Positions 1 to 25,886 of a DNA stretch of 32,362 nt are shown piece after piece. The stretch is from an uncultured Faecalibacterium sp. GTDB lineage: Bacteria; Bacillota; Clostridia; Oscillospirales; Ruminococcaceae. A program made the position numbers and the translations under genes. The stretch lies in NCBI GenBank assembly GCA_946411155.1, contig CAMKDB010000001.1, forward strand, positions 1-32,362, read 5' to 3'. The notes beneath the pieces are model-generated. The model saw only the letters and a list, made by a program, of their open reading frames with translations, had not been told where the DNA came from and searched no databases. Numbering within the stretch: the stretch's first letter is position 1; each line of letters begins with the position of its first letter.

Positions 1-118
1 CATCGTCTGGAGCCAAACCTTTCCGGGGCCGGTAACCACGGTGTTGAAGAGTCCCCGGATCGGCATCGTCTGGAGCCAAACCTTTCCGGGGCCGGTAACC
101 ACGGTGTTGAAGAGTCCC
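1..118. repeat. Tandem direct repeat: 55 bp identical at 1-55 and 64-118 (period 63 bp = 21 codons) inside the AIM24-family gene
   Basis: catcgtctggagccaaacctttccggggccggtaaccacggtgttgaagagtccc occurs twice; in-frame peptide GLFNTVVTGPGKVWLQTM is duplicated. Confidence 0.95.
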
Positions 119-681
119 TCTCCGCCGAGCAGAACGTTCGCAACGCCCTTTACGGTCTGGATATCCATGGAGCAGGTATCCTCCATCATAGCGATATAGC
201 CGCTGTCGATGACAAGACGCTCGCCGGGAGCCAGTGTGCGCTCCTGAACAGCGCCGTCGATCTCCATCCATGCGAAACCGTTTCCGCTGAACCGCTGCAT
301 CAGGAAGCCTTCACCGCCGAAGAAGCCAGCTCCGGCTTTTCTCTGAAGATAGATGTCCATCTGAACGCCTTCCGTCGAAGCAAGGAAAGCGGTCTTCTGC
401 GCGATGATCGGATGCTCCGAGATATTCAGGGCGATGATATCTCCGGGGCTGTGCTTTGCAAGCGTCAGTTCACCTGCAGCGTCCGCGGTATAGTGGTTCA
501 GTGCCAGGGACTCACCGACGACCATTTTCTTGAGCATGCCGCCGAGGCCGCCTGTCTTGGTCTCCATCCGGATACTGGGGGACATCCAGGCCATCGCGCC
601 GCTCTGACATTTAATCGATTCGCCTGCGTCCATGTGAAGAGTCAGGACAGTAAATGGCTGATTCTTGATTTCGTACCTCAT
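1..681 (-). CDS. AIM24 / TIGR00266 family protein, truncated at window edge (C-terminus missing)
   Basis: Open minus frame from ATG at 679-681 (SD AAAGGAG upstream) to position 1: MRYEIKNQPFTVLTLHMDAGESIKCQSGAMAWMSPSI...GGLGGMLKKMVVGESL...GPGKVWLQTM, a typical TIGR00266/AIM24 pattern. Not in the ORF track because it has no stop inside the window. Confidence 0.85.
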   Translation of the reverse strand, partial: MRYEIKNQPFTVLTLHMDAGESIKCQSGAMAWMSPSIRMETKTGGLGGMLKKMVVGESLALNHYTADAAGELTLAKHSPGDIIALNISEHPIIAQKTAFLASTEGVQMDIYLQRKAGAGFFGGEGFLMQRFSGNGFAWMEIDGAVQERTLAPGERLVIDSGYIAMMEDTCSMDIQTVKGVANVLLGGEGLFNTVVTGPGKVWLQTMPIRGLFNTVVTGPGKVWLQTM

Positions 682-18324: not shown

Positions 18325-20643
18325 TCAGACTTTCTGTTTCAGAAAATGATTTTTGACATATGCTGCATACTTTCCATAATCGCGTTCTGGATACTTTTTA
18401 TACAATTCCTGATAAAGTTCATATGCTTTTCCCGCAGCGGTGATGTTCCCTTTTTCCGCGTCCCTGTAATACTTCATTGCGACCTGAGCTTCCACAAAAC
18501 GGATGTTGTCTGCATAGAAAGCGGCTTTTTTCTCATCTCCTCTTTCTCCGGCATATTTGATCAAAATCTGATAATAGGCCTTCAACTGCTTTTCCGTATG
18601 AATGATCCCGATCTTTTCATTAAGAGCATTCTCGACCTCAACGGCTGAGCGGATCTCCGCCTCCGCCTTGGTATAGTCCTTCCGGTCTTCCGCAACGGTT
18701 GCCCGGCAGACATGAGCAAAAGCAAGGATCCTTGCTGAACTGATATCTCCAACGCTTTCATGCTCTTTTTCTGCCAGCGCGACGAATTCATCAGCGGTGT
18801 TTCGCGCTGCGTAATTGTTTTTCAGCCTGATATATGTATTGATCAATGTCTCATAGACTCTAAAGGTATACGGGCCCTGTACAAATTCTCCCAGCTGGTT
18901 CCTCAGTCCCTGAACGTACAAAAGGGTTTCGCGGCATTTTCTTTCTGCCTTTCTGAGATTATCGGAAGAATTGTTGTCTGCTGTGAAATATGCATTGGCG
19001 ATTTTCCCATAAAGACCTACCAATTCTTTGGCAAGTCCCTTATTATTTGCCGGATTACTGGCAAATACTCTTCTGATCAGCGGTTCCGCCTCTTCATAAC
19101 AGCGGACCGCCTCTTCCCGGTTTTCCTGTTTTGTCTCAATATCTCCCAGAATATTCAGCCCGACGCCTCTGTACAGAGCACTTAATAGAGCGGTATACTG
19201 TGTCTTCTTTTTGTCCTCATTTTCGCTTAACGAAGAAATGAAACTGTCAGCGATCTCCAGCATTTTCTTCAGATACGCTCTCGCTCCGGACAGGTCATTC
19301 TGTCTTACGGCGATCTCAGCTGCAAACTGAAACGATTCTGCCAGGGCGATTTTTTCATGGTCTGTCATCCCCATCAGGTCCAAGGACAGCATCTTCTCCA
19401 GTAATTTCCAGCATCGTTCGTATCGCAGAAGGTCTGCCCATTTTTTGGATGCCGCATTTACTGCTCTTATGTAGCGGAACAGCAGATCTTCCCCGTTATC
19501 TCCATCTGTCAGCTTTTTCTCCAGATAATCAGCATATCTCTCCTGCCAATGAGCGCTCTGCTCGTGGTCCCTTCTGACGCCCTGTCCCGTTTCATACATG
19601 GAAACAAGTTTCCTGTATGCCTCCTCGATTCCTCCCTCAGCCGCATCGGTGATCAGAACCCGGGCTTTTTCGTGATCCGTCTCTGTATCGATGCCGGACA
19701 GATACGCCAGTCCTATGAAAAATTTATGCCGGGGATCATCGTTTGTTTTGACGTTCAAAGCCTCTCTGATCCATTTCCCGACACGGTCAGGATCTTTGAT
19801 CGGCTCGGGAATGCCCGGATAATACTTTTTAAGAGTTTCCATCTCCGCATCGGCAGCCGCTATCGGAAGGATCTTTTTTTCTGCCTTTACTGCCATCGGA
19901 TATTCCGTGGTCATGACGTAATTCGGTTTTTCCAGCAGGTTCGGCGTAACGACCATTGAGAAAAGATCACTCTTTTCAAAAGCCTGCCGGATCGACTCGT
20001 TAAAATCCTCTCCCGGAGTCAGAAACTCATCATACCAGATCGCGATATCCCGGGTAAAAGACTCTTTATGGATCATCCGCATCACTTCCTGAGCGTAGCG
20101 TCGGTCCTTTTTACGGTAGCTCAGGAAGATGTACGCAGCAAAAGCCTGCCTGATCTTCTCTATTACTTCATCTTTCAGCAAAATGGTATCAAGGAACAGT
20201 TTCAGTTTGTCCTTATAGGGAAGCGCAGTCGGATCCGGGTCATATTTATTCAGTATCTGGAGATTTCCGCAGACCTCATTGAAAAGCATTTCCAGTCCCT
20301 GTTCCTCCAGCAAAGGCAGAATCGGGATATTCTCCCTCATCGCGAAGGCTAGTTCCAGTTTGCGTGCCGTATTCTCCGTTCTCAGGAATTCACCGGTCAC
20401 CGGCACGACGAACAGATCCATCCGAGAAAGGTCGCTCAGATACTGTTCTTTTCCTTCATCGTCGATCTGACCGAGATCCTGGTCACGGTACCAGACAGAA
20501 ATGTTGTTCTGCAGTTCAAAAAGATCAGAAGTGATTTCTTCAAAATACTTCGTGTAGTCTTGTTCCGTCGAACAGAAGAACACTTTCTGAAGGTCCTTCA
20601 GCAAATACGTTCCTTTAGTTTTATATCTCAGAGTGATTTCCAT
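18325..20643 (-). CDS. TIR-domain protein: N-terminal TIR-like domain, second TIR domain, Sel1-like repeats, TPR-like C-terminus
   Basis: KVFFCSTEQDYTKYFEEITSDL...DLFVVPVTGEFLRTENTARKLELAFAMRENIPILPL (TIR-like), AAYIFLSYRKKDRRYAQEVMRMI...IAIWYDEFLTPGEDFNESIRQAFEKSDLFSMVVTPNLLEKPNYVMTTEYPMAV (TIR), AEGGIEEAYRKLVSMYETGQGVRRDHEQSAHW (Sel1-like). ATG at 20643 with AGGAAG SD; TTG at 20664 also possible. Confidence 0.85.
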   Translation of the reverse strand: MEITLRYKTKGTYLLKDLQKVFFCSTEQDYTKYFEEITSDLFELQNNISVWYRDQDLGQIDDEGKEQYLSDLSRMDLFVVPVTGEFLRTENTARKLELAFAMRENIPILPLLEEQGLEMLFNEVCGNLQILNKYDPDPTALPYKDKLKLFLDTILLKDEVIEKIRQAFAAYIFLSYRKKDRRYAQEVMRMIHKESFTRDIAIWYDEFLTPGEDFNESIRQAFEKSDLFSMVVTPNLLEKPNYVMTTEYPMAVKAEKKILPIAAADAEMETLKKYYPGIPEPIKDPDRVGKWIREALNVKTNDDPRHKFFIGLAYLSGIDTETDHEKARVLITDAAEGGIEEAYRKLVSMYETGQGVRRDHEQSAHWQERYADYLEKKLTDGDNGEDLLFRYIRAVNAASKKWADLLRYERCWKLLEKMLSLDLMGMTDHEKIALAESFQFAAEIAVRQNDLSGARAYLKKMLEIADSFISSLSENEDKKKTQYTALLSALYRGVGLNILGDIETKQENREEAVRCYEEAEPLIRRVFASNPANNKGLAKELVGLYGKIANAYFTADNNSSDNLRKAERKCRETLLYVQGLRNQLGEFVQGPYTFRVYETLINTYIRLKNNYAARNTADEFVALAEKEHESVGDISSARILAFAHVCRATVAEDRKDYTKAEAEIRSAVEVENALNEKIGIIHTEKQLKAYYQILIKYAGERGDEKKAAFYADNIRFVEAQVAMKYYRDAEKGNITAAGKAYELYQELYKKYPERDYGKYAAYVKNHFLKQKV

Positions 20644-20745
20644 CTTATTGACTTCCTGCCGCAAAACGCTTTCCTTTGCCTGTCCCTATATTAATATCAT
20701 ATCAGCAAAACGCACCTGATTTTCAGTCATTGCTATATTTCGAAA

Positions 20746-20788
20746 ATAAAAAGGCACATGCTCCATGAACAGAAACATGTGCCTTTTC
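20746..20788 (-). terminator. Rho-independent terminator of gap
   Basis: Inverted repeat aaaaggcacatg ... catgtgcctttt with a minus-strand TTTTTATTTT tail, just downstream of the gap stop. Confidence 0.85.
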
Positions 20789-20810
20789 TACACTTGGTTT
20801 TCAGTACCGA

Positions 20811-21878
20811 TTAGCCGAGTTCGCTGAAGTACTTGATGGTGCGGACCATCTGGCTGGTGTAGGAGTTCTCGTTGTCATACCAGGACACGACCTGTACCAG
20901 ATATGTGCCGTCGCCCATATCGGAGACCATGGTCTGGTTGGCATCGAAGAGGGAGCCGAATCTCATGCCGATGATGTCGGAGGAGACGAGCTTCTCTGTG
21001 GTGTAACCGAAGGACTCATTTGCATGGGCCTTCATTGCTTCGTTGATGCCCTCAACAGTGACGTTCTCGCCTTTGACAACAGCGTGCAGGATCGTGGTGG
21101 AGCCGGTAACGGTAGGAACTCTCTGTGCAGCGCCGATGAGCTTGCCGTTCAGTTCAGGAATGACAAGACCGATCGCCTTTGCGGCACCGGTGGAGTTCGG
21201 TACGATGTTGGCAGCGCCAGCTCTTGCTCTCTGGAGGTCGCCTTTTCTGTGCGGTCCGTCGAGGATCATCTGGTCACCGGTGTAAGCGTGAACAGTGGTC
21301 ATGATACCGGACTGAATCGGAGCATAGTCGTTCAGAGCCTGGGTCATCGGAGCGAGGCAGTTTGTGGTACAGGAAGCAGCAGAAATGATCTTGTCTTCCT
21401 TCGTGAGTTTGGTGTGGTTGACGTTGTAGACGATGGTGGGAAGATCGTTGCCTGCCGGAGCAGAAATAACGACTTTCTTTGCGCCTGCATCGAGGTGAGC
21501 CTGGGATTTCGCCTTAGAGGTGTAGAATCCGGTGCACTCCAGAACGACGTCAACATCGAGCTCTGCCCAAGGAAGATCCTTTGCGTTGGGCATTGCATAG
21601 ATTGTGATCTCCTCGCCATCAACTGTGATGGAGCCGGGGGTCTTGACGGTCTTGCCGTCTTCCTCATACTCGGGCTCTTTGGAAGTGACAGTGTGAAGAT
21701 TTTCGCCGAAAACGCCGCAGTAACCGCCCTGTGCAGAGTCATACTTCAGCAGGTTTGCAAGCATCTTGGGGCTTGTCAGGTCGTTGATAGCAACGATGTC
21801 ATAACCCTCAGCGCCGAACATCTGACGGAACGCAAGACGACCAATGCGGCCGAAGCCATTGATAGCAACTTTTACCAT
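20811..21878 (-). CDS. gap: Glyceraldehyde-3-phosphate dehydrogenase
   Basis: [56 protein letters not shown]. Confidence 0.98.
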
Positions 21879-24605: not shown

Positions 24606-25886
24606 ATGATTGATATTCGTCTCGTTCGTACCAATCCTGAACTCGTAAAAGAGAATATCCGCAAAAAATTCCAGGACGAAAAACTCGTTCTTGTCGACGA
24701 AGTCCTCGATCTGGACAAGCAGTACCGGGAAGCCCGCACCCGCTGCGACGAGCTGCGTTCCCAGCGCAACTCCATCAGTAAACAGATCGGCGTCCTTTTC
24801 GGTCAGGGAAAACGCGATGAAGCCAATGCGGCAAAAGCGCAGGTCTCTTCGATCAATGAAGAACTGGAAAGTCTGGAAAAAAGCGAAGTAGATCTGGAAG
24901 CCGAGATCAAAAAGCGGATGATGGTCATTCCTCAGATCATCGACGATTCCGTGCCGATCGGTAAAGACGACAGTGAGAACGTCGAAATCGAGCGTTTCGG
25001 CGATCCGGTAGTCCCGGATTATGAGATTCCCTACCATGTGGACATCATGGAACGGCTCGCAGGCATCGATCTGGATTCCGCCCGCAATACCAGTGGAAAC
25101 GGTTTCTACTATCTGCGCGGAGACATCGCCCGCCTGCATTCCTCGATTCTCAGCTATGCCCGCGACTTCATGATCAACCGCGGTTTCACTTACTATATTC
25201 CCCCGTTCATGATCCGTGGCAATGTCGTGAGCGGCGTCATGAGCTTCACCGAGATGGAAAACATGATGTACAAGATCGAGGGTGAAGACCTCTATCTGAT
25301 CGGCACCAGCGAGCACTCCATGATCGGCAAATTCATCAACACAATTTTGGATAAGGATCAGCTTCCCCAGACACTGACAAGCTACAGCCCCTGTTTCCGT
25401 AAGGAAGTCGGCGCACACGGTATCGAGGAGCGCGGCGTATATCGGATCCACCAGTTTGAGAAGCAGGAAATGGTCGTTGTCTGTGAACCCGAAGACAGCA
25501 TGAAATGGTATGACATCCTCTGGCAGAACACGGTCGATTTCTTCCGCAGTCTGGACATTCCGGTCCGCACCCTTGAGTGCTGCTCCGGTGATCTGGCCGA
25601 TCTGAAAGTCAAGAGCTGCGACGTTGAAGCATGGAGTCCGCGTCAGAAGAAGTACTTTGAGGTCGGAAGCTGTTCCAATCTCGGCGATGCGCAGGCAAGA
25701 CGCCTCGGCATCCGCATCCGCGACAAAGAGAAGGGTAATTACTTCGCTCACACGCTGAACAATACCTGTGTCGCTCCTCCGAGAATGCTCATCGCATTCC
25801 TTGAGAACAACCTTCAGGAAGATGGCCGGATCCGCATTCCTGAGCCTCTGCGGCCATATATGGGCGGGCAAGAATACATCGGGTAA
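24606..25886 (+). CDS. serS: Seryl-tRNA synthetase
   Basis: MIDIRLVRTNPELVKENIRKKF; class II motifs; LIGTSEHSM; NNTCVAPPRMLIAFLENNLQEDGRIRIPEPLRPYMGG. Confidence 0.97.
   Translation: MIDIRLVRTNPELVKENIRKKFQDEKLVLVDEVLDLDKQYREARTRCDELRSQRNSISKQIGVLFGQGKRDEANAAKAQVSSINEELESLEKSEVDLEAEIKKRMMVIPQIIDDSVPIGKDDSENVEIERFGDPVVPDYEIPYHVDIMERLAGIDLDSARNTSGNGFYYLRGDIARLHSSILSYARDFMINRGFTYYIPPFMIRGNVVSGVMSFTEMENMMYKIEGEDLYLIGTSEHSMIGKFINTILDKDQLPQTLTSYSPCFRKEVGAHGIEERGVYRIHQFEKQEMVVVCEPEDSMKWYDILWQNTVDFFRSLDIPVRTLECCSGDLADLKVKSCDVEAWSPRQKKYFEVGSCSNLGDAQARRLGIRIRDKEKGNYFAHTLNNTCVAPPRMLIAFLENNLQEDGRIRIPEPLRPYMGGQEYIG

Follow-up and report, generated by a model that had tools for sequence, protein, structure and literature searches.

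A tandem-TIR protein with a Sel1/TPR tail belongs to an unnamed family of gut Bacillota, some members of which are encoded beside RyR-domain proteins

Does a single gene of an uncultured Faecalibacterium sp. encode a self-contained NAD-cleaving enzyme, or may its product take part in nucleotide signalling? The gene lies in a stretch of 32,362 nucleotides from contig CAMKDB010000001.1 (hereafter, the window). The initial annotation described a protein with two TIR-like units followed by Sel1-like and TPR repeats, and proposed a possible single-gene defence or stress-sensing NADase. The open reading frame was confirmed to the exact nucleotide on the minus strand (Table 1), and all motifs that had been quoted for the protein were found in it. 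The ATG codon at 20643 gives a protein of 772 aa, and an in-frame TTG codon at 20664 would give 779 aa. Full-length homologues (L041-L045) are 774-775 aa long and share 65-67% identity with the window protein. Because the feature is conserved across more than 80 aligned homologues, a chance origin is excluded. The AlphaFold model of the full-length protein (pLDDT 90.2), which served as the proposed check on the domain count, contains two alpha/beta TIR domains (TIR1 and TIR2) ahead of the helical repeats and solely helix pairs at residues 304-771. Thus, the TIR1-TIR2-Sel1-TPR architecture is genuine.

Table 1 Features of the tandem-TIR locus in the window
Feature	Position (nt)	Strand	Basis
Gene for the 772-aa TIR1-TIR2-Sel1-TPR protein	18325..20643	(-)	ORF; full-length homologues L041-L045
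TIR1, divergent TIR fold, residues 1-162	20158..20643	(-)	hhalign to TIR2; AF2 and Foldseek; E97 column
TIR2, canonical TIR, residues 164-300	19744..20154	(-)	Pfam TIR_2 (5e-15); E247 conservation; AbTIR profile match
Sel1-like repeats, approximately residues 303-379	19507..19737	(-)	Pfam Sel1 below cut-off; phmmer; helix pairs in the model
TPR superhelix, putative sensor, approximately residues 387-772	18328..19485	(-)	AF2 helix pairs; TPR_12; low column identity
Strong terminator-like hairpin in the gap between the GAPDH and TIR genes	20728..20815	(-)	Fold z-score -4.85

Pfam TIR_2 covers residues 172-264 of TIR2 (E 5e-15), and the TIR2 profile matched AbTIR in the PDB. TIR2 possesses S175-Y176-R177, the BB-loop region W203-Y-D205 and a glutamate, E247, at the catalytic position between strands C and D; at its WxxxE position, V243 replaces the tryptophan. 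In a first set of homologues E247 was invariant (86/86 proteins); these 86 members had been chosen by the TIR2 peptides FLSYRKKD and AIWYDEF, and the invariance of these motifs is partly built in. Therefore, we re-measured the conservation on 32 profile-selected sequences. Wherever TIR2 was present, S175, W203, D205 and E247 were each conserved in 29/29 sequences. The glutamate that had been assigned to the NADase position of the second TIR unit is thus constant in both sets.

TIR1 was recognised by profile-profile and fold comparison only. When residues 1-162 were searched alone, Pfam gave TIR_2 with an E value of only 0.0018, and a PDB profile search with TIR1 returned no TIR match. In contrast, hhalign aligned the TIR1 profile (66 homologous N-domains) with that of TIR2 at 97.6% probability (E 2.7e-12), and in this alignment E97 of TIR1 pairs with E247 of TIR2. 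Because the Foldseek matches of the full-length model were dominated by TPR proteins, TIR1 was modelled separately (pLDDT 90.5). The matches of this model in the PDB were mainly TIR domains (RPS4/RRS1, SPARTA TIR-APAZ, AbTIR, PdTIR and SARM1). Thus, the N-terminal 165 or so residues, which had been noted as TIR-like, form a true TIR by profile comparison and fold, and both of the claimed TIR units stand, TIR2 being identified by Pfam as well.

Position 97 is glutamate in 61/86 proteins of the first set; in the profile-selected set (n = 29) it is E in 6, D in 11, V in 6 and A in 4. Because this glutamate is poorly kept (6/29) whereas E247 is present in 29/29, the enzyme is very probably TIR2; across the family, TIR1 is most readily understood as a partner that is mostly non-catalytic. 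A catalytic/regulatory TIR pair, as the initial annotation had supposed, is therefore the best reading of the protein. The window protein itself possesses E97, and since this residue is retained, its own TIR1 may be a second active TIR. Three of the 32 profile-selected sequences (L035, L036 and L225) carry TIR1 without TIR2, and TIR1-only TPR proteins occur within the same genus as the window. The TIR1-only TPR genes of two congeners (L035:7975-9270 and L036:3633-5018) each adjoin the same type of small gene, which we presume may belong to the YjbQ family.

In the C-terminal region, Pfam TPR_2 was above the cut-off at residues 496-519 (E 1.3e-6) and Pfam Sel1 was below it at residues 348-366; with phmmer, solved Sel1-type proteins matched residues 263-373 (E 6e-13). 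Both types of repeat are accordingly present, as had been described. TPR_12 was found in 75/78 C-termini of the family, the tails of which range from 245 to 977 aa and align with a mean column identity of approximately 10%. The mean pair identity is 57% for TIR2 and 46% for TIR1. By sequence comparison, the TIR pair is thus constant in the family while the TPR tails diverge strongly, and this sensor-like divergence is in keeping with the earlier idea that the repeats act as sensors.

How widely is this module distributed? A scan of genome_contigs with the single sequence gave no relatives, and a query with the alignment gave 406, from which 79 loci were kept. These derive mostly from Bacillota MAGs of ruminant and other animal guts, with some from Spirochaetota and Chloroflexota. 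The Spirochaete rows of the module tree make up a single clade that is placed among the Bacillota rows, and the Chloroflexota row likewise lies among Bacillota. Profile searches found the module in 9/391 genomes of the class (E < 1e-20) and in about 10/299 genomes of the family. Its occurrence is therefore patchy (2-3% of sampled genomes), and some carrier genomes have two or three copies. An NCBIfam search gave a chance match only, the TIR1-TIR2-Sel1-TPR family has no name in NCBIfam or PADLOC (2023), and we did not find the architecture described in the literature. Thus, the family is large, resides in gut Bacillota and is so far unnamed. It occurs widely in bacteria from the guts of ruminants and other animals, and its built-in pair of pseudo-TIR and TIR offers a one-chain system for studying how TIR pairs switch on.

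The genomic setting was surveyed among the homologues, as the initial annotation had recommended. In the window, the TIR gene is located 146 bp downstream of a GAPDH gene, and its other neighbour is a 339-aa ORF without RyR. Because a strong hairpin separates the upstream GAPDH gene from the TIR gene (Table 1), separate transcription of the TIR gene is suggested. The GAPDH-TIR gene order is common to the window and two relatives. Across the 80-odd family loci no constant partner gene was found, the direct neighbours being mostly housekeeping genes, and among 81 direct-neighbour proteins only scattered single PADLOC matches to defence genes were obtained, none of them consistent. No phage or plasmid records carrying the module were found; two IMG/VR contigs carry it. 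The gene is therefore chromosomal and in no obvious defence island. Accordingly, the survey gave no constant partner for a defence system, but it did reveal a recurrent neighbour of another kind, a gene for an RyR-domain protein. An antiphage role of the family may still be proposed; we infer it from analogy and from the patchy occurrence and fast evolution of the family.

Pfam RyR was detected in 4/81 direct-neighbour proteins, and with an iterated RyR profile an RyR gene was found directly adjoining the TIR-pair gene in 9/102 family loci (approximately 9%). RyR genes account for 9/192 direct neighbours versus 1/718 genes at a distance of three or more positions (Fisher p 6e-6). The genome background, with 31 RyR genes across 391 genomes, would lead one to expect approximately 0.007 RyR neighbours. 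In the L086, L085 and L105 genomes, the sole PF02026 gene found is the one adjoining the TIR gene. The partners are of several types: proteins with hydrophobic, N-terminal membrane segments and a C-terminal RyR (L111, L105, L084 and L064, and also L034, where the gene is two genes away), proteins that combine an HD-like part with RyR (L060 and L085), and small RyR-only proteins (L086 and L193). A further protein with a RelA/SpoT-like N-terminus and a C-terminal RyR (L191:5240-8122) is encoded 14 bp ahead of its TIR-pair gene. The HD-like, RelA/SpoT-like and Rossmann/TrkA-like assignments are based on low Pfam scores or on motifs. Conversely, RyR genes from the class sample had a directly adjoining TIR gene in seven loci (L225, L227, L228, L231, L232, L234 and L235). 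Runs of three genes, for a large RyR protein, a small RyR-only protein and a TIR protein, were seen at L227:4825-8314, L231:2152-7378 and L232:1-4658. At L193:3118-9982, consecutive genes encode a PP2C phosphatase, a 1359-aa kinase-like protein, an RyR-only protein and the TIR pair, and at L031 a kinase-domain protein is encoded near TIR genes.

RyR proteins of phages either cleave or sequester TIR-made 2'/3'cADPR, and their site residues are H75, W78, H100 and D117 (PMC13232231, 2026 preprint). L086:10504-10851, a small RyR protein, has His, Trp, His and Asp at +0/+3/+25/+42, which is the spacing of these RyDEP residues. Because RyR genes adjoin TIR-pair genes in approximately 9% of loci, we propose that the family, or at least a part of it, may signal with ADP-ribose-type nucleotides, beyond NAD+ depletion; for the same reason, the earlier label of a single-gene NADase may be too narrow. 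We did not find bacterial RyR-TIR operons described in the literature, although they may be covered by a 2025 survey of TIR signalling systems. Of the leads obtained, the linkage to RyR is the most interesting. With it, one can test whether RyR domains of bacteria serve as receptors for signals made by TIRs, and the 2026 RyDEP preprint raises the receptor question for animal ryanodine receptors (PMC13232231).

In the window, no RyR gene adjoins the TIR gene, and the window genome (68.8% complete) gave no match to PF02026. With the iterated profile, a membrane protein whose C-terminus is RyR-like was detected in this genome (L202:6568-8484, contig G000:C17; E 3.6e-7, Pfam-negative), and the gene directly after it encodes a TIR and beta-propeller protein (L202:8503-11604). 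Relatives of the membrane protein are present in 4/5 genomes of the nearest TIR-pair relatives as well as in congeners that lack the TIR pair. The window TIR gene and this membrane protein may be connected in trans. Elsewhere in the same genome (L037:85-3579, contig G000:C99), a BspA-type leucine-rich repeat protein has a TIR domain inside it.

How might the protein act? We favour a cytosolic sensor-enzyme, a reading to which we assign a probability of roughly 55%. The fast-changing Sel1/TPR C-terminus would recognise a ligand derived from an intruder or from stress, and the N-terminal TIR pair would then be released or assembled, after which TIR2 would cleave NAD+ via E247. TIR1, no longer reliably catalytic, would pair with TIR2 within the same chain and serve in regulation or assembly. 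The reaction would result in NAD+ loss and/or an ADP-ribose-type nucleotide, and, in a part of the family at least, RyR-domain proteins from adjacent genes would probably read or remove this nucleotide. We infer that the protein is an NADase, that TIR1 regulates it and that the TPRs sense a ligand, and likewise the identity of the signal and the (antiphage) role in conflict. Approximately 90% of family loci have no adjacent RyR gene and the window gene has none, which counts against the sensor-enzyme model, as do the mostly housekeeping neighbours, the lack of phage or plasmid copies with only two IMG/VR contigs, V243 at the WxxxE position of TIR2 and the retained E97 of the window's TIR1.

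The lack of a constant partner, the invariant catalytic glutamate of TIR2, the variable tails and the patchy distribution would also suit a stand-alone abortive-infection NADase, in which the TPRs would sense a phage component, NAD+ depletion would kill or arrest the cell, and the RyR neighbours would be counter-regulators or incidental. SpbK provides a precedent for a single-gene TIR NADase (PMC12847820). Given that a defence-island or mobile-element setting is missing and that the RyR linkage far exceeds background, we consider this explanation conceivable but rather unlikely. If, instead, TIR2 made a cyclic or modified ADP-ribose, RyR proteins might be its membrane-anchored readers or small erasers, and at the window genome the reader would work in trans. 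The excess of RyR genes among direct neighbours, their membrane segments, the ligand residues of the L086 protein, the seven loci reached independently from RyR genes and, in the window genome, the adjacency of another TIR gene to the gene for the RyR-like membrane protein all speak for such signalling. However, most family loci, including that of the window, have no neighbouring RyR gene, and the domain in the window genome is Pfam-negative and has a different TIR as its partner; we consider this explanation unlikely. Housekeeping neighbours, the GAPDH-TIR order common to two relatives and the chromosomal location would fit a scaffold for housekeeping or stress signalling outside defence, in which both TIRs bind proteins and the TPRs bind the cell's own proteins. 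Strict glutamate conservation in TIR2 only is hard to explain without catalysis, and patchy distribution and fast-diverging tails also argue against a scaffold, which we regard as improbable. A broader proposal, which we hold to be doubtful, places the family in a branch of bacterial nucleotide signalling that has yet to be described. As the TIR arm of this branch, a tandem pseudo-TIR/TIR enzyme with an exchangeable TPR sensor would make an ADP-ribose-type signal, and bacterial RyR proteins (membrane proteins with a C-terminal RyR, and small RyR proteins) would be its receptors and off-switches. If this is true, the arrangement would parallel cADPR and the ryanodine receptors of animals.

The sensor-enzyme reading can be compared with known systems. 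Both TIR units share the TIR fold with enzymatic TIRs (AbTIR, PdTIR, SARM1 and SPARTA TIR-APAZ), and TIR2 shares with AbTIR the glutamate at the catalytic position and an alignable BB-loop region. The window protein differs from these enzymes in its tandem TIRs, one glutamate of which is not conserved in the family, in the absence of the WxxxE tryptophan from TIR2 and in the Sel1/TPR tail. Thoeris ThsB resembles it in the TIR unit, with weak PADLOC similarity (E 7e-4 and 9e-3), and the neighbouring gene of some relatives carries a domain related to cADPR binders. However, this similarity is marginal and short of ThsB level, the window protein has a large repeat tail, and no ThsA (SIR2-SLOG) or other constant effector gene is adjacent. 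TIR-TPR proteins of 'group 6', which are mainly actinobacterial, possess one N-terminal TIR followed by many TPRs and exceed 700 aa (PMC7075850). The N-terminal TIR, the many TPRs and the length are shared, whereas the family described here has a TIR pair and Sel1 repeats and occurs in gut Bacillota and a few Spirochaetota/Chloroflexota. SpbK resembles our working model in combining a catalytic TIR and a sensor region in one protein; the window protein differs in its tandem TIRs, and no prophage or ICE context was seen. The RyR-only neighbours of some relatives share ligand residues with the RyDEP/RyR (R12) phage proteins (PMC13232231), but the relatives' RyR proteins are bacterial, are encoded with TIR genes and are often fused to membrane or HD-like parts.

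The history of the locus may involve the GAPDH gene as well. The GAPDH of the window (20811-21878) is 93-95% identical to that of Erysipelotrichaceae MAGs with the nearest TIR homologues and 81-82% identical to that of congeners. In contrast, SerRS (24606-25886) shows the opposite trend (75-76% versus 87-89%). The GAPDH gene is in its usual place, adjoining an exonuclease gene. These identities suggest that GAPDH may have been acquired long ago, perhaps along with the TIR gene. A recent joint transfer of the two genes was considered and rejected: the GAPDH DNA identity is 81% versus 78-80% and third positions are heavily changed, and therefore any transfer would be old. At the contig end (window 1-270), an ORF contains a short head-to-tail repeat in which GLFNTVVTGPGKVWLQTM occurs twice, probably an artefact of the assembly end.
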